A stretch of 34,787 nt of DNA from Candidatus Rokubacteria bacterium 13_2_20CM_69_15_1. GTDB taxonomy: Bacteria; Methylomirabilota; Methylomirabilia; Rokubacteriales; CSP1-6. This document shows positions 22,349 to 29,403 of the stretch, in pieces. Both the position numbers and the translations under genes were made by a program. The stretch is from contig MNCR01000046.1 in assembly GCA_001914535.1 (NCBI GenBank), positions 1 to 34,787 of the forward strand, written 5' to 3'. Positions within the stretch are counted from its first letter, which is position 1. Each line of letters starts with the position of its first letter. Below the pieces are notes generated by a model. That model saw only the letters and a list, made by a program, of their open reading frames with translations. It was not told where the DNA came from and did no database searches.

Positions 22349-23059
22349 CTATTCCGTTCCGACGCGCCGTGGGTCGCCGTCGCGGCGCGCGCCGGCAGAG
22401 AGTTCGGCGACCCACGGATATCGTTTCGCCTCGATCGCCGTGTAGCCAAGGTTGAACACGGTCGCGCTGGGCGGGACACCGGTTGTCCTCTCGTAGAGCG
22501 TGCCGAACACGCGGTCCCAGACGACGCTGGTAATCCCGTAATTCCCCCTTTCGTTGTGGAAGTGATGGGCCAGATGGTGTCGCTTGATCCGCTGGAGAAA
22601 CCGCGATTTCGGCGCGTAGCGCAAATGCTGGACGCAGTGGCAGAACTCATAGAGGGAGATGATGAGCGAGCCCGCGGCGAATGCGGCCGAGGCGCCCGCC
22701 CGGCCACCGACGGCCCAGCCCACCGGCACGGTGATCAGCGCGATGGTCGGCACCGTCGTGTAGAGCGCGCCAAACAGGACCCTGAGGTCGTACGGGTCCC
22801 GATGGTGATCGAAGTGGATCCGCTTCCAGAGAGAGGCGGTGAGGCGAGCCTTGTAGAGGAACCGGCCGTGCAGCACGCAGCGGTGTAGCCCGTACTCCGC
22901 GAGCGGATAGAGGAGCGCGGTCAGCGCCACGGCGACGAGGGGAGGCCAGACGGTTCCTGCCCAACGGACGGCCAGCCCGCCGCCGACCGCCGCCATCACC
23001 ACGTAGGTGAGCACGGTGGAATCGAGGAAGAACGCCTTCAGCAGATCCGCCCGCGACAT
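22349..23059 (-). CDS. Membrane di-iron fatty acid hydroxylase / sterol desaturase family protein
   Basis: 236 residues from the ATG at 23059. The frame is open to a GTG at 23212 that overlaps the upstream stop (GTGA), giving 51 more poorly structured residues, so the true start is uncertain. The histidine clusters that bind the di-iron centre are present: H59/H64 in 'EYGLHRCVLH', 'HFDHH' at 82-86, and 'RHHLAHHFHN' near the C-terminus. About four membrane helices surround them. Family members hydroxylate or desaturate lipid chains, including sphinganine C4 and the ceramide acyl chain. It follows the SRPBCC gene on the same strand, at the end of the putative ceramide locus. This context favours a sphingolipid hydroxylase, but the sequence alone does not fix the substrate. 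Confidence 0.8.
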   Translation of the reverse strand: MSRADLLKAFFLDSTVLTYVVMAAVGGGLAVRWAGTVWPPLVAVALTALLYPLAEYGLHRCVLHGRFLYKARLTASLWKRIHFDHHRDPYDLRVLFGALYTTVPTIALITVPVGWAVGGRAGASAAFAAGSLIISLYEFCHCVQHLRYAPKSRFLQRIKRHHLAHHFHNERGNYGITSVVWDRVFGTLYERTTGVPPSATVFNLGYTAIEAKRYPWVAELSAGARRDGDPRRVGTE

Positions 23060-23208
23060 CCTCGACAGATCGTGCGTCCGGCCTCTCCGGAAGCTTCTGT
23101 CAACGATCACGGGCGGTCCCCGAAGGCCGCACCCGGCCGATGCCGAACTCTCGCCCGAGGCCGCCGGCATGAGATCTCGACGCAGCGCCTGACCGCCGCG
23201 CCATACCC

Positions 23209-23904
23209 TCACGGCGCGCTCAGGGCCTTATCGGGCGCGCCCGATACCTCGGCCGCCGGTGATTGCTCCTTGGTCCACGTCCCATCGGATTCCGTGCGCC
23301 GCTTTATGCTCGAGAGGACTCCCGGCAGGTCGTAGCTGATGAGTTGCTCCTCGAGAAACTTCGGCACGATCATGCCACTGTCCACTGTGCTGGTGTACCG
23401 GACGACCGTCCCGCCCCGGCGGTAGGGGAGGAACTCCCAGGTTCCGGACGTATCCGCAATGTCGTGTTTCCTGGATTTGTCCAGCGTCCAGGCGACTCTC
23501 CCCTGGGTAGGGTAGAACTTCAAGTCGAGCGTGTGGGTGAGCGTGCCGACCGGCATGCTGACGGTCTCGGTGACCTTCATGGTGTCCTTCGTCTTTTCCA
23601 GCACCTTCACCTTCGAGAGACGCGGCATGAACTCATGAAACTTTTCATAGTCCAGCATCACCGCCCAGGCGGCGTCCGGCGGCTTGTTGATGACGCAATA
23701 GCCCTTGATCGTCACGGCGCGCTTTCCGTCCGCGATGGAATAGACGCGCGTTTTTACGACGACCTCGCCCCGGTTGATCTTGTCCACTTCATCCGGCGTC
23801 AGTCCGGCCGTGGCCGGCTCCCGAGCGTGCACGGGCGTCAGCGCGACGAGCAGCAACGCCGCGCTCAGCACGACGGTCCTCACGGCTGTCATACGAGAAC
23901 CCAC
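23209..23904 (-). CDS. Exported START/SRPBCC-fold lipid-binding-type protein
   Basis: 231 residues from the GTG at 23904, chosen because GGAGGAAA (plus 23911-23918) lies nine bases upstream; an ATG four codons later has no such site. Residues 1-27 are a Sec signal peptide ('MTAVRTVVLSAALLLVALTPVHA' with a basic start). The mature domain follows the polyketide-cyclase/START layout: 'VTIKGYCVINKPPDAAWAVMLDYEKFHEFMPRLSKVKVLEKTKD' (first strand and the helix after 'PPDAAWAV'), a curved beta sheet, and the C-terminal helix 'PKFLEEQLISYDLPGVLSSIKRR' that closes the hydrophobic cavity. START-fold proteins bind lipids or hydrophobic ligands. A secreted copy between ceramide-type enzymes and a lipid hydroxylase suggests a periplasmic lipid carrier. 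Its stop overlaps a possible start of the hydroxylase gene. Confidence 0.82.
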   Translation of the reverse strand: MGSRMTAVRTVVLSAALLLVALTPVHAREPATAGLTPDEVDKINRGEVVVKTRVYSIADGKRAVTIKGYCVINKPPDAAWAVMLDYEKFHEFMPRLSKVKVLEKTKDTMKVTETVSMPVGTLTHTLDLKFYPTQGRVAWTLDKSRKHDIADTSGTWEFLPYRRGGTVVRYTSTVDSGMIVPKFLEEQLISYDLPGVLSSIKRRTESDGTWTKEQSPAAEVSGAPDKALSAP

Positions 23905-23969
23905 ATCGACTTTCCTCCGAACCCACGAGCGTGACGGCGCGGGATGAGGTTTCGAAAACGGCTCAATAT

Positions 23970-23998
23970 ATTGTAAGCCGAGCGGGCATTGCCGGCCA
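23970..23998 (-). promoter_or_regulatory. Candidate promoter for the SRPBCC-hydroxylase pair
   Basis: On the minus strand TGGCCG (-35, plus 23993-23998; 3 of 6) and TACAAT (-10, plus 23970-23975; 5 of 6) are 17 bases apart, in the only AT-rich island of the 180-base gap. A perfect 10-bp palindrome caatatattg (23964-23973) overlaps the -10 and could be an operator. Confidence 0.4.
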
Positions 23999-24084
23999 CG
24001 CATTTTCCCCGCGAACACGGCCTCGAGTGCCGCGACCGGCACACGGGGAACCGCGTAGGGGAACCGACGCGGAAAAGATCGTGC

Positions 24085-25221
24085 TCACAGGAGCCGGTCG
24101 AATAACCGGTACGTCTTGTAGCGGTGGCCTTGCCCGAGATCGATTTCGCGGATCGCCGAAGCATTGTCCTCGAGGAGCCAGGACGCTTCGACGCCCGTGA
24201 AGCCACGCCGAAGGGCCGCGCGGAGGCCTTCGTTGAACATGACGGCGTTGATGCCGCGCATCCGCCACTCTCGCTTGATCCCGAGTGCGACGACCCGAAG
24301 CGTCCTGATCCGTCGCGCGGCGAGCATGAACTTGAGCCACCCCCATGGGAGCAGGCGGCCTCTCGTCGGCGCGATGGCCCGATTGAAGTCGGGGAAGGCC
24401 ATGAAGAACCCGATCGGCTCGAGCGCGCCGCCCGGGCGGCGGATTTCGGCCAAGTAGACGAAGTCCTTGTCCAGGAGCGGCCTCAAGCGCTGGGCCATGA
24501 AGGCGATCTCGTCGCCCGTCATGGGCACGAAGCCCCAGTTCCTCTCCCACGCCGCGTTGTACACCTCGCGGACCTTCGGCAGATCCGCCCCGAGGCTTCT
24601 CCGGGTGATCGGCCGGATGAGGACGTCCGTCTCTCGCCGGCGAATCTGGTCCGCCACGCGCTCGAGGCGGTCGAGCGGTATTCCGGAGAGATCGACCCAG
24701 TACGCGAAGAGATCCTTGGCCTTCCGAAAGCCTGCCCCCTCGAGGAGCTCGCGGTAGTAGGACGGGTTGTACGTCATCATAAAGACCGGAGGCGCGTCGA
24801 ATCCGTCGACGAGGAGCCCCGCCTCGTCGTTGAGCGAGGGGTTGGCGGGCCCGCGCAAGACTTTCATCCCGCGTTCGCTCACCCAGGCCGCCGCCGCATC
24901 GAAGAGGCCATGAGCCACCTGCTGATCGTGTTCCGACTCGAAATAGCCGAAGAAGCCCGTCTGCTCACCGTGAAACTCATTGTGCGTGCGGTCCAGGATG
25001 GCGGCGATCCTGCCGACGTCCGTCCCGCGCCGGTGCGCGACGAAGAGTTGCATCTCGGCGTGGCGGAAGAAGGGGTTCTCCGGGGACAACACTCTCACGA
25101 GATCGTTCCGGAGCGGGGCGACCCAATGCGGGTCAGCGGCGTAGATCGTCTCTGCGACGTCGAAGAAGCGGCGAAGCTCGCGCTTTCCCCTCCCGATCCG
25201 CTCGATCCGGACGCCGCTCAT
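24085..25221 (-). CDS. GNAT-fold acyltransferase, candidate bacterial ceramide synthase
   Basis: 378 residues. The N-terminal half reads 'FFDVAETIYAADPHWVAPLRNDLVRVLSPENPFFRHAEMQLFVAHRRG', then 'VGRIAAILDRTHNEFHGEQTGFFGYFE' and 'RGPANPSLNDEAGLLVDGFDAPPVFMMTYNPSYYRELLEGAGF'. This is a widespread GNAT-like family. The second half repeats the GNAT-like fold ('EPIGFFMAFPDFNRAI', 'LGIKREWRMRGINAVMFNEGLRAALRRGFTGVEASWLLEDN'). Bacterial ceramide synthases (bCerS) are known to belong to the GNAT superfamily and to be encoded near Spt and CerR. Here the gene lies 36 bases after the Spt gene. Acylation of the amine of 3-ketosphinganine is therefore the preferred guess. The family also occurs outside sphingolipid loci, so the assignment rests on context. 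It appears cytoplasmic, with no signal peptide. Confidence 0.7.
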   Translation of the reverse strand: MSGVRIERIGRGKRELRRFFDVAETIYAADPHWVAPLRNDLVRVLSPENPFFRHAEMQLFVAHRRGTDVGRIAAILDRTHNEFHGEQTGFFGYFESEHDQQVAHGLFDAAAAWVSERGMKVLRGPANPSLNDEAGLLVDGFDAPPVFMMTYNPSYYRELLEGAGFRKAKDLFAYWVDLSGIPLDRLERVADQIRRRETDVLIRPITRRSLGADLPKVREVYNAAWERNWGFVPMTGDEIAFMAQRLRPLLDKDFVYLAEIRRPGGALEPIGFFMAFPDFNRAIAPTRGRLLPWGWLKFMLAARRIRTLRVVALGIKREWRMRGINAVMFNEGLRAALRRGFTGVEASWLLEDNASAIREIDLGQGHRYKTYRLFDRLL

Positions 25222-25257
25222 AGGACCGCTCGCGTGATCACGGCGAGAACGGCAAGG

Positions 25258-26499
25258 TCAGACGCTCGCGGCGCGGACGAGGCCCACTTCGCGCCCGGCG
25301 AGCTCGATCGCGTCCAGGGCGCGCGAGAGATGCTCGCGCGTGTGGGTGGCCATCAATGAGGTGCGGATCAGCGCCCGGCCCGGAGGCGTGGCGGGCGGGA
25401 GGACGCAGTTGACGAACACACCCGCCGCGTGAAGGCGTTGGACCATCTTGAGCGCGACGAGGTCGTCTCCGACGATGATGGGCACGACCGGTGTCTGCGA
25501 CTGCCCCGTGTCGAGCCCGAGGAGCTTCAGCCCGTCCGAAAAGAAGCGCCGATTCTCCCAGAGCCGTGCCCGACGCTCCGGCTCGCTCTCCATGATCGCG
25601 AGCGCGGCCAGAGCGGCTCCGATGGAGGCCGGGGGAGGGCTGGCGGAGAAGATCAGCGTCCGGGCACGGTGCTTGATGTAATCGATCACGGTCGCGTCTC
25701 CGGCGACGAATCCACCGATCGAGGCCATCGACTTCGAGAAGGTGCCCATGATGAGGTCCACGTCCGCCTCGAGGCCGAAATGCTCCGCGGTGCCCCGGCC
25801 GGTGTCGCCGAGAACCCCGATGCCGTGCGCGTCGTCCACCATCACGCCCGCGGCGAATTCCCTCGCCACGGCCACGATCTCGGGCAGCGGCGTGATGTCT
25901 CCCTCCATCGAGAAGACGCCGTCCACCACGACCAGGCGCCCGCTCACCTCATCGTCGGTCATCATCTGGCGCCTGAGGTCTGCGGAGTCGTTATGCTTGA
26001 ACTTGTGCACGTGCCCGAAGGCGAGCCGCGCCCCGTCGAGGATGCAGGCATGGTCGAGCTTGTCGAGATAGACCGTGTCCCCCTTGCTGACGAGGCAGGC
26101 GATGGTCCCGAGATTGACCTGGTACCCGGTCGTGAAGGTCACGACCGCGTCCTGGCGCATGAACTCCGCCAGCCGCTCTTCCAGCCGCGTGTGGAGGTCG
26201 AGCGTGCCGTTCAAGAAGCGGCTGCCGGCGCAGCCCGACCCGTACTGGCGGATGGCGCCGATCGCGGCCTCTTTGACTCGAGGATCGTTGGTCAAGCCGA
26301 GGTAGTTGTTCGAGCCGAGCATGATCATCCGGCGACCGCCGACGACGACCTCGGGATCCTGCGGGGACTCGACCACCCGGAAGAAGGAGTAGAGCTGCGC
26401 TTGACGCGCCCGCTCGGCGTCCTGGTACCGGTAGCACTTGTCGAACACGGGGGACGTGCGGACCGCTTCTGCCTTTGCCGCCGAAGCGACTTTGCTCAT
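25258..26499 (-). CDS. spt: Serine palmitoyltransferase-type alpha-oxoamine synthase
   Basis: 413 residues from the ATG at 26499, with GGAGA six bases upstream; a TTG at 26520 is a poorer alternative. PLP-dependent fold type I. Visible residues: H150 ('DKLDHACILDGARLA', stacks on the PLP ring), D222 and H225 ('VMVDDAHGIGVLGDTGRG'), and the PLP lysine K256 in 'GTFSKSMASIGGFVAG'. 'GSNNYLGLTNDPRV' and 'YGSGCAGSRFLNGT' are family hallmarks. 'GTFSKS...GGFV' and 'VFVNCVLPPATPPGRALIRTSLMATHT' agree better with bacterial serine palmitoyltransferases than with 8-amino-7-oxononanoate synthase or glycine C-acetyltransferase, which remain alternatives. It would condense serine with palmitoyl-CoA or acyl-ACP to 3-ketosphinganine in the cytoplasm. 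Flanked by CerR-like and GNAT genes in one direction. Confidence 0.8.
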   Translation of the reverse strand: MSKVASAAKAEAVRTSPVFDKCYRYQDAERARQAQLYSFFRVVESPQDPEVVVGGRRMIMLGSNNYLGLTNDPRVKEAAIGAIRQYGSGCAGSRFLNGTLDLHTRLEERLAEFMRQDAVVTFTTGYQVNLGTIACLVSKGDTVYLDKLDHACILDGARLAFGHVHKFKHNDSADLRRQMMTDDEVSGRLVVVDGVFSMEGDITPLPEIVAVAREFAAGVMVDDAHGIGVLGDTGRGTAEHFGLEADVDLIMGTFSKSMASIGGFVAGDATVIDYIKHRARTLIFSASPPPASIGAALAALAIMESEPERRARLWENRRFFSDGLKLLGLDTGQSQTPVVPIIVGDDLVALKMVQRLHAAGVFVNCVLPPATPPGRALIRTSLMATHTREHLSRALDAIELAGREVGLVRAASV

Positions 26500-26549
26500 C
26501 GCGTCTCCATTGGCCGGCAATCGGCCGCAACGATCTTAGCAGACCTTCC

Positions 26550-27539
26550 TTACGAAGGCAGCCATCCCTCGCGCACATACCAGTCCCACGTGGCGCGCAG
26601 GCCGTCTTCCAGCGCCGTCGGCACGGGCAAGCCCAGATCGCGGCGCAGGGGCGCCGGATCGCAGAGCCAGTCACCCGCGAGAAGGTCGCGCGCCTTGTCG
26701 GCGTTGAACCCGTGTGGCCGACGCGTCACGAGCTCGCGGAGGCTCTGGGTCAGCCCTGCGACCCGGACGAGAAGATCGGGAATCGCGACGAGGCGCGCGG
26801 GTCGCGCCGGCAGTCGCGCGAGCGCGCCCGCGAAGTCCCGAATCGCCACCGGCGCCGGATCGCAGAGGAAGCCGGTCCTCCCGGCGAGATCCGGACGACC
26901 GGCGGCGCGGGCGATCGCGAGCGCGAGATGCTCGGCGTGGACGACGTGGATTCGGGAACGTCCGGCGGGCACCGGTACGACACCGCGCGCCGCCGCTTTG
27001 AACAGCGGGAGCAAGCCGCGATCACGGGGCCCATAGACGACCGCCGGGCGGAGAACGATCCAGGGCCCCTTCCACTCCCGCTCGACCGCCTCCTCTCCTT
27101 CTCTCTTGGAGATGCCGTACCCGGACACCGGCCGAGCGACGTCCCCTTCGCATACCTGTCTCCCGTCGCGTGCGGGCCCGGCCGCCGCCTGGCTCGACAC
27201 GAGGACGACGAGGGCGTCGGGCGCCCGCTGGTGCGCGGCTCGGAGCAGGCGTACGGTCGCAAGGACGTTCCCCTCCCGGTAGTCGTCAAGCGTCCGCGCC
27301 CTGACGAGGCCAGCGACGTGCACGATGGCGTCGGAGCCGCTCACGGCGTCGGCCAGGTCGGTGTGCGCCGACAGATCGCCGGGCACGATCTCGACGGAGA
27401 GATCGCCGATCCCGAGCTGACGAGGGTTCCCGCTTCGTCGGACGAGCGCCTTGACTCTCCACCCGGCGTTGCACAGGGCGCGGGCGACATGGCTCCCCAC
27501 GAAGCCGGTGGCCCCGGTGAGAAAGGCGCGACCCGTCAC
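26550..27539 (-). CDS. cerR: NAD-dependent epimerase/dehydratase-type reductase, CerR-like
   Basis: 329 residues. Extended SDR: 'AFLTGATGFVGSHVARAL' (TGxxGxxG), 'VEIVPGDLSAHTDLADAVSGSDAIVHVAG', and a catalytic Y141/K145 in 'SGYGISKREGEE', with serines in 'VLVSSQAAAG'. The family includes the bacterial ceramide reductase CerR, which reduces the 3-keto group of the sphingoid moiety; eukaryotes use a classical SDR instead. Being first in a run with the Spt-type and GNAT genes (50 and 36 base gaps) supports this role. Other epimerase-family functions are possible from sequence alone. Start is GTG 27539 with no Shine-Dalgarno, and a TACAAT lies seven bases upstream, so the mRNA is probably leaderless. 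Confidence 0.72.
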   Translation of the reverse strand: MTGRAFLTGATGFVGSHVARALCNAGWRVKALVRRSGNPRQLGIGDLSVEIVPGDLSAHTDLADAVSGSDAIVHVAGLVRARTLDDYREGNVLATVRLLRAAHQRAPDALVVLVSSQAAAGPARDGRQVCEGDVARPVSGYGISKREGEEAVEREWKGPWIVLRPAVVYGPRDRGLLPLFKAAARGVVPVPAGRSRIHVVHAEHLALAIARAAGRPDLAGRTGFLCDPAPVAIRDFAGALARLPARPARLVAIPDLLVRVAGLTQSLRELVTRRPHGFNADKARDLLAGDWLCDPAPLRRDLGLPVPTALEDGLRATWDWYVREGWLPS

Positions 27540-27656: not shown

Positions 27657-28556
27657 TCACAGCGAGTTCGTCTTCGGCGGCCAGGGAATCCCGAGCGTAT
27701 CCAGTCGCCGCAGCCGGTCCTGACCGAGCGCCGCGTCCCAGACCTGGGCCAGCGTCTCGGGCGTCCAACCCTCGCGGCTCGTGATCGCGCGCAAGGGCGC
27801 CGGATGCGACCAGAGCGTCACCTGCGTAGAGCGCACATGGATGACCTGACCGGTGATGTGTGCAGCGCGGTCGCTCGCGAGAAACGTCACGACCGGCGCC
27901 ACCGCCTCGGGCGGCGCGGCCGCCTGCGCCCGGCGGTCGTCGGGGAGTCGCTCGGTCATCCGCGTTTCGGCGGACGGCGAGATGCAGTTCACGGTGACGC
28001 CGTACCGCGCCATCGCGAGCGCCGTCGAGCGCGTGAGCCCGACGATGCCTTCCTTCGCCGCCGAGTAATTCGGCTGGCCCGCGCTTCCCTCTAACCCGGC
28101 CGTTGAGGTGAACGTGATGATCCGTCCGCGGCGCGTCTCGCGCATGTGGCGCGTTGCCGGCCGCATGACGGTGAAGTGGCCCTTGAGATGCACGGCGACG
28201 ACCGCGTCCCATTCCTCTTCGGTCATGTTGAAGATCATCCGCTCGCGCAGGATGCCGGCGCAGCAGACGACGATCTGGAGGTCGCCGAACCGCGCGAGCG
28301 CCGTGTCGACGATCGACTGGCCGCCGGCGAGCGTCGCGACGCTCTCGGCGTTGGCCACCGCCTCACCGCCGATGGCCTCGATCTCCTTGACCACGGCCTG
28401 CGCGGCGGCGCTCGACGGGTCGCGCCCGTCGACGGTCACGCCGTAATCGTTGACGACGACCTTGGCGCCCGCGCGGGCGAGCCCGAGGGCGACACCGCGC
28501 CCGATTCCGTTGCCGGCGCCGGTCACGACCGCCACCTTTCCGTCGAGCAGTCCCAT
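27657..28556 (-). CDS. Classical SDR oxidoreductase, FabG/multifunctional-enzyme-like
   Basis: 299 residues from the ATG at 28556, which has GAGGAGA about six bases upstream. The Rossmann motif is 'VTGAGNGIGRGVALGLARAGA' (TGxxxGIG), and the catalytic residues S151, Y164 and K168 sit in 'TFTSTAGLEGSAGQPNYSAAKEG'. The N-terminal 'VVVNDYGVTVDGRDPSSAAAQAVVKEIEAIGGEAVAN' loop, longer than in FabG, is typical of SDRs related to the hydroxyacyl-CoA dehydrogenase part of peroxisomal multifunctional enzyme. A tail of about 45 residues after the SDR core ('SREGWTPETLAQVWDAALGQDRLRRLDTLGIPWPPK') fits the same group. Probable 3-hydroxyacyl-CoA or similar NAD(P)-dependent dehydrogenase. It lies 16 bases after the RluA gene and 117 bases before the CerR-like gene. 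Confidence 0.85.
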   Translation of the reverse strand: MGLLDGKVAVVTGAGNGIGRGVALGLARAGAKVVVNDYGVTVDGRDPSSAAAQAVVKEIEAIGGEAVANAESVATLAGGQSIVDTALARFGDLQIVVCCAGILRERMIFNMTEEEWDAVVAVHLKGHFTVMRPATRHMRETRRGRIITFTSTAGLEGSAGQPNYSAAKEGIVGLTRSTALAMARYGVTVNCISPSAETRMTERLPDDRRAQAAAPPEAVAPVVTFLASDRAAHITGQVIHVRSTQVTLWSHPAPLRAITSREGWTPETLAQVWDAALGQDRLRRLDTLGIPWPPKTNSL

Positions 28557-28572
28557 GCGTCTCTCCTCAGGG

Positions 28573-29403
28573 CTACGCGCGGCGGAAGCCCGACGGCGGT
28601 GGGCTCTCGAAGACGACCCGCCGTCCAGTCGGGTGGATGAAGCCCAGCCGCGTGGCGTGCAGACAGACACGCCCCAAGGGGTCGCGGCGGCTCCCGTACG
28701 CGCGGTCGCCGACGATCGGGTGCCCGCGCGCCGCGAGCTGAGCCCGGATCTGGCCCCGCCGTCCCGTCACGAGCGCGAGCTCGAGCAGCGTCGCCCCCCG
28801 CGAGCGCTCCAGCACGCGGTAACGGGTGATCGCCTCCTTGCCGTGGCGTCCATCGCGCGCGGTCCGGACGCGCAGCGCCCGATCCTCCACGAGCGACGAG
28901 GTCAGCGTCCCCTGCGGCTCACGGACGACGCCCTCCACGCGGGCCACGTACACCCGCTCCGGCGTGCGCGCGTTGAATTGCGCCTGGAGCGCCCGCTTCA
29001 CCTCGAGCGACTTGGCGAAGACGAGGAGGCCGGACGTCTCGCGATCGAGGCGGTGGACGACGAAGATCCGCGGGCCTCCCCGCGCTCGCACCCAGTCCCC
29101 GAGCAGGCGATAGACGGTCCGCTCGCGCTCGGCCTCGGTCGCGATCGTCAGGAGCCCCGGAGGTTTGTCGACAACGACGAGGTGCTCGTCCTCGTGAACG
29201 AGTCGGAGCGGCGCCGGCACGGCGGCCGGTGCCGCCGCGTCCAGGTCGACACGGTCCGCCGGGCCCACCGGAGCGTCGCCGCGGGAGACGACGACGCCGT
29301 TGACGCGAACGCGCGCGCCGTCGAGCCACTGTTTGAGCCGGCGGCCCGACGTCTTCGGGTAGAGGGCGCGCAGCCGCTCTCGGAGCCTCAGGTCCTGTCT
29401 CAC
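28573..29403 (-). CDS. RluA-family RNA pseudouridine synthase
   Basis: 276 residues. An N-terminal S4 RNA-binding domain (about 8-60, 'RLRALYPKTSGRRLKQWLDGARVRVNGVVV') is followed by the synthase domain with the catalytic Asp120 in 'FVVHRLDRETSGLLVFAKS', and 'ALVTGRRGQIRAQLAARGHPIVGDRAYG' of the RluA family. It isomerises uridines in rRNA or tRNA; the target position cannot be told. Start is GTG 29403. It is 15 bases after the GspB gene, so it may be in the same transcript, though functionally unrelated. Confidence 0.9.
   Translation of the reverse strand: MRQDLRLRERLRALYPKTSGRRLKQWLDGARVRVNGVVVSRGDAPVGPADRVDLDAAAPAAVPAPLRLVHEDEHLVVVDKPPGLLTIATEAERERTVYRLLGDWVRARGGPRIFVVHRLDRETSGLLVFAKSLEVKRALQAQFNARTPERVYVARVEGVVREPQGTLTSSLVEDRALRVRTARDGRHGKEAITRYRVLERSRGATLLELALVTGRRGQIRAQLAARGHPIVGDRAYGSRRDPLGRVCLHATRLGFIHPTGRRVVFESPPPSGFRRA

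Follow-up and report, generated by a model that had tools for sequence, protein, structure and literature searches.

A predicted ceramide synthesis and hydroxylation gene block in a Rokubacteria genome

Introduction

The ceramide genes of Caulobacter crescentus comprise spt, bcerS, cerR, acpR and aasR (PMC11087976, PMC11324152), and loci with the first three of these genes, encoding serine palmitoyltransferase (SPT), the N-acyltransferase bCerS and the reductase CerR, are described for other phyla in the Black Sea survey of PMC11334938 and, according to that paper, by Stankeviciute et al. 2022. SPT-like genes or proteins are already on record from about 40 phyla (PMC11334938), and thus the trio as such represents an already familiar type of locus. 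Some SPTs use alanine and possibly further amino acids (PMC11334938). Functional FA2H homologues have been reported in myxobacteria (reviewed in PMC10002949), such that bacterial FA2H enzymes are not new as such.

Here we analyse a window, by which we mean the whole stretch of 34,787 nucleotides examined (contig MNCR01000046.1), from a soil-type bacterium, Candidatus Rokubacteria bacterium 13_2_20CM_69_15_1, in which five neighbouring genes very probably build ceramide, the sphingolipid core, and then hydroxylate it. As in Caulobacter crescentus, an SPT, an N-acyltransferase and an epimerase-type reductase lie in one genomic region, so that the three enzyme types of that pathway recognized in the sequence-only reading are indeed present together. 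Unlike Caulobacter, the block has no dedicated acyl carrier protein (ACP) or acyl-ACP synthetase that we could find, its hydroxylase is FA2H-type where Caulobacter CC_0202 is DesA-type, and no lptFG2 or phosphoglycerate head-group genes were noticed in the window. The adjacency of SPT, bCerS and CerR is likewise shared with trio loci of other phyla (Rubrobacter L040, Streptomyces L041; PMC11334938). The trio joined to a yeast-like FA2H-type hydroxylase and a START-fold protein, and conserved as a block, is an unusual combination that appears to be new.

Our literature search found no paper linking Rokubacteria or Methylomirabilota with sphingolipid synthesis, a prior listing in supplementary tables being possible, and the locus would extend predicted ceramide synthesis to this group. 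The earlier expectation that sphingolipid synthesis reaches a scarcely described lineage here holds to that extent, and is narrowed in that the phylum is one of about 40 and the locus looks like an acquisition at the level of a genus.

Organization of the gene block

All five open frames lie consecutively on the minus strand at positions 22349-27539, as first read from the sequence, and their family calls were upheld. They encode a CerR-like epimerase-type (extended SDR) reductase (P0005, 26550..27539; Pfam Epimerase, 2e-28), an SPT of the PLP-dependent alpha-oxoamine synthase type (P0004, 25258..26499), a bCerS tandem-GNAT N-acyltransferase of the ceramide synthase type (P0003, 24085..25221; called from its fold, with no match in Pfam), an exported START/SRPBCC lipid-binding protein (23209..23892; Pfam Polyketide_cyc2, 6e-11) and an FA2H/Scs7-type di-metal lipid hydroxylase (P0001, 22349..23110; Pfam FA_hydroxylase, 1.5e-20). 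Judged by their gaps, the first three genes are tightly packed (about 50 bp between CerR and SPT, 36 bp between SPT and bCerS) and the START and hydroxylase genes more loosely attached (192 bp between bCerS and START, 100 bp between START and hydroxylase); the limits of the operon are drawn from these gaps because scans for consensus promoters and terminators returned no match.

The most probable start codons are ATG 26499 for the SPT, whose TTG frame opens seven codons earlier at 26520, and GTG 23110 or ATG 23059 for the hydroxylase, whose longest frame reaches to 23212. A longer GTG frame for the START protein reaches 24042; the start at ATG 23892 gives this protein an N-terminal signal peptide, and a hydrophobic signal sequence can be read there (MTAVRTVVLSAALLLVALTPVHA). 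We also considered the upstream SDR gene (27657-28670) as a member of the block and rejected it, as it belongs to a generic FabG-like family and has no counterpart adjoining the block in G001, another genome of the same genus.

The serine palmitoyltransferase

Several lines of evidence bear on the synthase. The best NCBIfam model for P0004 is the Bacteroidota-type SPT (CFB) model (NF047600; 523 bits, under its cut-off of 640), and its best relatives in the PDB are Sphingobacterium SPTs (2e-125). In a 33-row tree that set the SPTs of Sphingobacterium, Parabacteroides and Sphingomonas (S. wittichii) against E. coli KBL, Thermus KBL/BioF and the KBL/BioF-like paralogues of the phylum, P0004 falls inside the SPT clade, separated from KBL and BioF with 100/100 support, and a larger tree of 94 rows agrees on this placement. 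The clustering with glycine C-acetyltransferase or BioF that would have spoken against the original assignment is thus absent, and the PLP and active-site residues then listed as H150, D222, H225 and K256 are intact (H157, D229, H232 and K263 when counted from the TTG). We conclude that P0004 is a predicted SPT, expected to use L-serine and a long-chain acyl thioester, of a branch whose nearer neighbours are SPTs of the Sphingobacterium/Bacteroidota type, with the Caulobacter/Sphingomonas type more distant.

The acyltransferase and the reductase

P0003 is 34-45% identical to the proteins that hold the bCerS position, both in relatives and in clusters from Rubrobacter, Streptomyces, Roseomonas, Klebsiella and Sphingomonas, with 34-37% over the full length to the bCerS of alphaproteobacterial clusters. 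When Sphingomonas bCerS is used as the query, P0003 is the sole match in the genome carrying the window (G000; 5e-60), and no match is found in G002, a genome of the same genus in which SPT is also lacking. An AlphaFold2 model that drew on 44 sequences of the window and the loci reaches a mean pLDDT of 94. In Foldseek it matches tandem-GNAT N-acetyltransferases (E 5e-15), FemX and N-myristoyltransferase coming lower in the list. Homology and model together indicate that P0003 is a bCerS homologue with a confidently predicted tandem-GNAT fold, which bears out the GNAT-fold acyltransferase proposed at the outset.

Other bCerS homologues occur in varied settings. E. coli YghO is one of them, and those nearest to P0003 after that of the Acidobacteriota MAG L072 come, without SPT or CerR in the flanks examined, mostly from Verrucomicrobiota (L073-L075, L077-L082). 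In three Myxococcota loci (L117, L125, L133) CerR is flanked by two bCerS genes and adjoins SPT, which suggests two N-acyltransferases that may differ in acyl or base preference.

The reductase carries the expected motifs, namely TGATGFVG (TGxxGxxG) at residue 8, S115 and Y141-xxx-K145 (YxxxK), and its gene lies beside SPT in every SPT-bearing relative. It is about 62-63% identical to its counterpart in L072, 28-41% identical to the CerR-position proteins of other phyla and 28% identical to Sphingomonas CerR. With the latter as the query, P0005 is the best match in G000 (2e-15), but in G001 and in G011 a different epimerase is closer than the CerR of the locus, and G002, a genome without the locus, has a homologue closer to Sphingomonas CerR. 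Since homologous epimerases are common, the assignment leans mainly on synteny, and P0005 would be CerR by position and motifs and less clearly by orthology: the CerR-like reductase first proposed has the motifs and the place beside SPT, and a reciprocal-best relationship with alphaproteobacterial CerR is not seen in G001 and G011. Caulobacter CerR is periplasmic, whereas P0005 has no obvious signal peptide.

Co-conservation of the trio

Across the 95 genomes of our phylum survey, an SPT of this kind occurs in 11, and in all 11 CerR and bCerS are adjacent to it, whereas the KBL/BioF-like paralogues, with the G014 gene set aside, have neither CerR nor bCerS within the 1.5 kb flanks examined (Fisher 1e-8). 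Beyond the phylum, a scan of named genomes with the bCerS alignment returned 80 loci, 51 of them with SPT and 40 with both SPT and CerR within 3 kb; the trio loci among the 80 span more than a dozen phyla, and SPT and CerR are associated near bCerS (Fisher 1.5e-11). Both Fisher p-values overstate the case, as related sequences are not independent, and the spread over phyla does not rest on them. G002 lacks both SPT and bCerS. The survey proposed earlier, of whether the GNAT and epimerase genes accompany spt in other genomes, therefore came out positive within the phylum and outside it, and because the trio is co-conserved, chance adjacency of the three enzyme types, already thought unlikely, is excluded.

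Further genes were seen at some of these loci. A PAP2_3 gene lies next to bCerS in other Methylomirabilota trio loci, those of f8 and of G011 (L033 6961-7836, L036 4831-5718, L039 3110-3964); it matches a phosphoinositol dihydroceramide synthase model weakly (28 bits, cut-off 480) and is a candidate ceramide head-group transferase or phosphatase. A conjugative plasmid of Klebsiella michiganensis (L043) carries a full set of SPT, ACP, CerR, acyl-AMP ligase and bCerS.

The hydroxylase and the START protein

As its first description had it, P0001 is a predicted lipid hydroxylase. All four of its histidine motifs (HX4H at 110, HX2HH at 133, HX3H at 192 and HX2HH at 213) are intact, and yeast Scs7 is its only credible PDB match (3e-11). 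It shares family and histidine motifs with the ceramide 2-hydroxylases yeast Scs7 and animal FA2H and with the myxobacterial FA2H homologues (PMC10002949), and unlike Scs7 and FA2H it has no cytochrome b5 domain and is encoded beside bacterial ceramide genes. Close orthologues within the phylum are confined to G000 and G001, none of the remaining Methylomirabilota trio genomes having one, and the block differs from the trio loci of other phyla in that no P0001-related hydroxylase was seen in the examined flanks of any of the 80 bCerS loci.

Related hydroxylases do lie beside bCerS in two other settings. The nearest plasmid homologues of P0001 (52-55% identity) sit between lptG and bCerS in ceramide clusters of Roseomonas, and in R. 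mucosa (L180, L181) the hydroxylase overlaps the start of bCerS by 4 bp, although these clusters are of alphaproteobacterial type, with ACP, LptFG2 and head-group genes and no annotated START protein. In the same family as our genome, G014 holds a second ceramide-type cluster (L175, G014:C66, 242-6158) of an acyl-AMP ligase, an ACP-fused alpha-oxoamine synthase, a TSC10-like reductase, an Scs7-like hydroxylase (1e-24) adjoining bCerS, and bCerS itself. It resembles the window in its bCerS, alpha-oxoamine synthase and Scs7-like hydroxylase, and differs in the fusion of the synthase to ACP, in the acyl-AMP ligase and in having the TSC10-like gene in place of CerR. That such genes turn up next to bCerS in separate settings is the strongest argument for a ceramide role of the hydroxylase family, and the predicted link of P0001 to the ceramide locus is well supported. 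With members of the family adjoining ceramide synthase genes in unrelated bacterial lineages, the enzyme responsible for hydroxylated ceramides in such bacteria, Roseomonas included, can be tested directly by gene deletion.

Two side observations concern the same clusters. On the R. mucosa plasmids (L180 11041-12974, L181 12989-14910) the hydroxylase is annotated as sterol desaturase family and bCerS as dATP pyrophosphohydrolase, annotations that are probably uninformative or wrong. In the G014 cluster the best solved relative of the reductase is the 3-ketodihydrosphingosine reductase TSC10, so that a eukaryote-like reductase occurs there together with a bacterial bCerS.

The call of an exported START-fold protein was upheld by its Pfam match and by the signal peptide that follows ATG 23892. 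An orthologue occupies the same place in G001, and outside this genus START and ceramide genes do not co-occur. No homologue was found in the plasmid collection. Because the other orthologues (52-58% identity) sit in f5 genomes that lack this SPT, a ceramide role, suggested by adjacency, is a guess. The gene is conserved in many of these f5 genomes (L069 9821-10459 and L051-L059), and no lipid-gene context was seen in L069.

A predicted pathway and its alternatives

Taken together, gene identities, intact catalytic motifs, the SPT phylogeny, the co-conservation of the trio and the recurrence of the five-gene unit in two genomes make it likely that the five genes serve to build ceramide de novo and then to hydroxylate it. 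In this scheme SPT would form 3-ketosphinganine from L-serine and a long-chain acyl thioester, and bCerS would attach a second acyl chain to the nitrogen of this product. Reduction of the 3-keto group by the CerR-like enzyme would give dihydroceramide, to which the Scs7/FA2H-type membrane hydroxylase would add a hydroxyl group, the most probable site being C-2 of the N-acyl chain; transport of the lipid through the periplasm is a possible task of the exported START protein. As remarked in the sequence-only reading, the dedicated ACP and acyl-ACP synthetase of Caulobacter are not seen here: no ACP was noticed beside the block, and no AasR-type ligase matched at 1e-20 in G000, which is 76% complete, and for want of such a ligase the acyl donor is probably acyl-CoA or housekeeping acyl-ACP. 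A bolder version holds that a laterally acquired five-gene unit makes alpha-hydroxylated ceramide, which the secreted START protein ferries across the periplasm, and that FA2H-type hydroxylases joined bCerS several times; we regard it as doubtful, though if true it would be a bacterial counterpart of eukaryotic ceramide hydroxylation and START-type ceramide transfer.

The synthase step admits two other interpretations. Shared fold and family, and P0004 scores of 389 bits with the BioF model and 383 bits with the KBL model, are what speaks for a glycine C-acetyltransferase or BioF with unrelated neighbours, an identity that is scarcely credible given that tree, models, structures and synteny all put P0004 with SPT, and that we set aside on the tree, models and synteny. 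It is also improbable that the enzyme takes alanine, glycine, lysine or cysteate, yielding a 1-deoxyceramide, an amino-headgroup ceramide or a sulfonolipid instead of canonical ceramide. Alpha-oxoamine synthases do differ in the amino acid used, SPT-like proteins have been hypothesised to use others (PMC11334938) and P0004 scores well with TIGR01825, but it is nested in the SPT clade, CerR and bCerS adjoin it as in ceramide loci, and its 422 bits with Sphingobacterium SPT against 256 with cysteate-C-fatty acyltransferase make a sulfonolipid-type synthase less likely.

The two downstream genes raise comparable questions. The trio alone might be the ceramide unit, with START and hydroxylase an independent pair that lies beside it by accident and acts on another lipid, for example a free fatty acid, a carotenoid or a hopanoid, as the wider gaps ahead of both genes, the absence of the pair beside the trio in L072 or any other Methylomirabilota locus and the START orthologues in f5 genomes without SPT might suggest. 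Yet the unit conserved between G000 and G001 comprises five genes, hydroxylase homologues overlap bCerS in Roseomonas, an Scs7-like gene adjoins it in G014, and the sole credible solved relative is a ceramide hydroxylase, so we consider such an accident quite improbable. Sur2 shares its Pfam family with Scs7, to which P0001 shows modest identity, and hence the enzyme might be Sur2-like, hydroxylating C-4 of the long-chain base to give phytoceramide and not C-2 of the acyl chain; with Scs7 as its single credible solved relative and a histidine pattern that aligns with it throughout, this is unlikely.

Origin of the block

The ceramide block predicted here has a history distinct from that of its host phylum. 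In all three trees the window and G001 group with the Acidobacteriota MAG L072 (identities to L072 of 77% for SPT and 65% for bCerS), the remaining SPTs of Methylomirabilota make up a clade of their own, and a single clade of all Methylomirabilota SPTs is rejected in the 33-row tree (p-AU 4e-9). At the DNA level the window resembles G001 over 22373-27480, up to the outer genes, beyond which the flanks differ; this comparison relies on blastn blocks, tblastx of the flanks giving mostly noise. The G001 block is split over two contigs that overlap inside bCerS. A search for viral contigs gave one match, which was uninformative. The bin contains no 16S rRNA, and we considered mis-binning of the contig and judged it unlikely, as the flanking PQQ dehydrogenase is 85-93% identical to its orthologues in each of the three remaining genus members and the same five-gene block occurs in G001. 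Of the four genus members two have no such SPT, and one of these two genomes is 100% complete. The simplest reading is that the block was probably acquired laterally by this genus, separately from the rest of the phylum; the locus is a putative genus-level acquisition and not a trait of the whole lineage, and the phylogeny shows that the predicted ceramide cassette entered the phylum at least twice.
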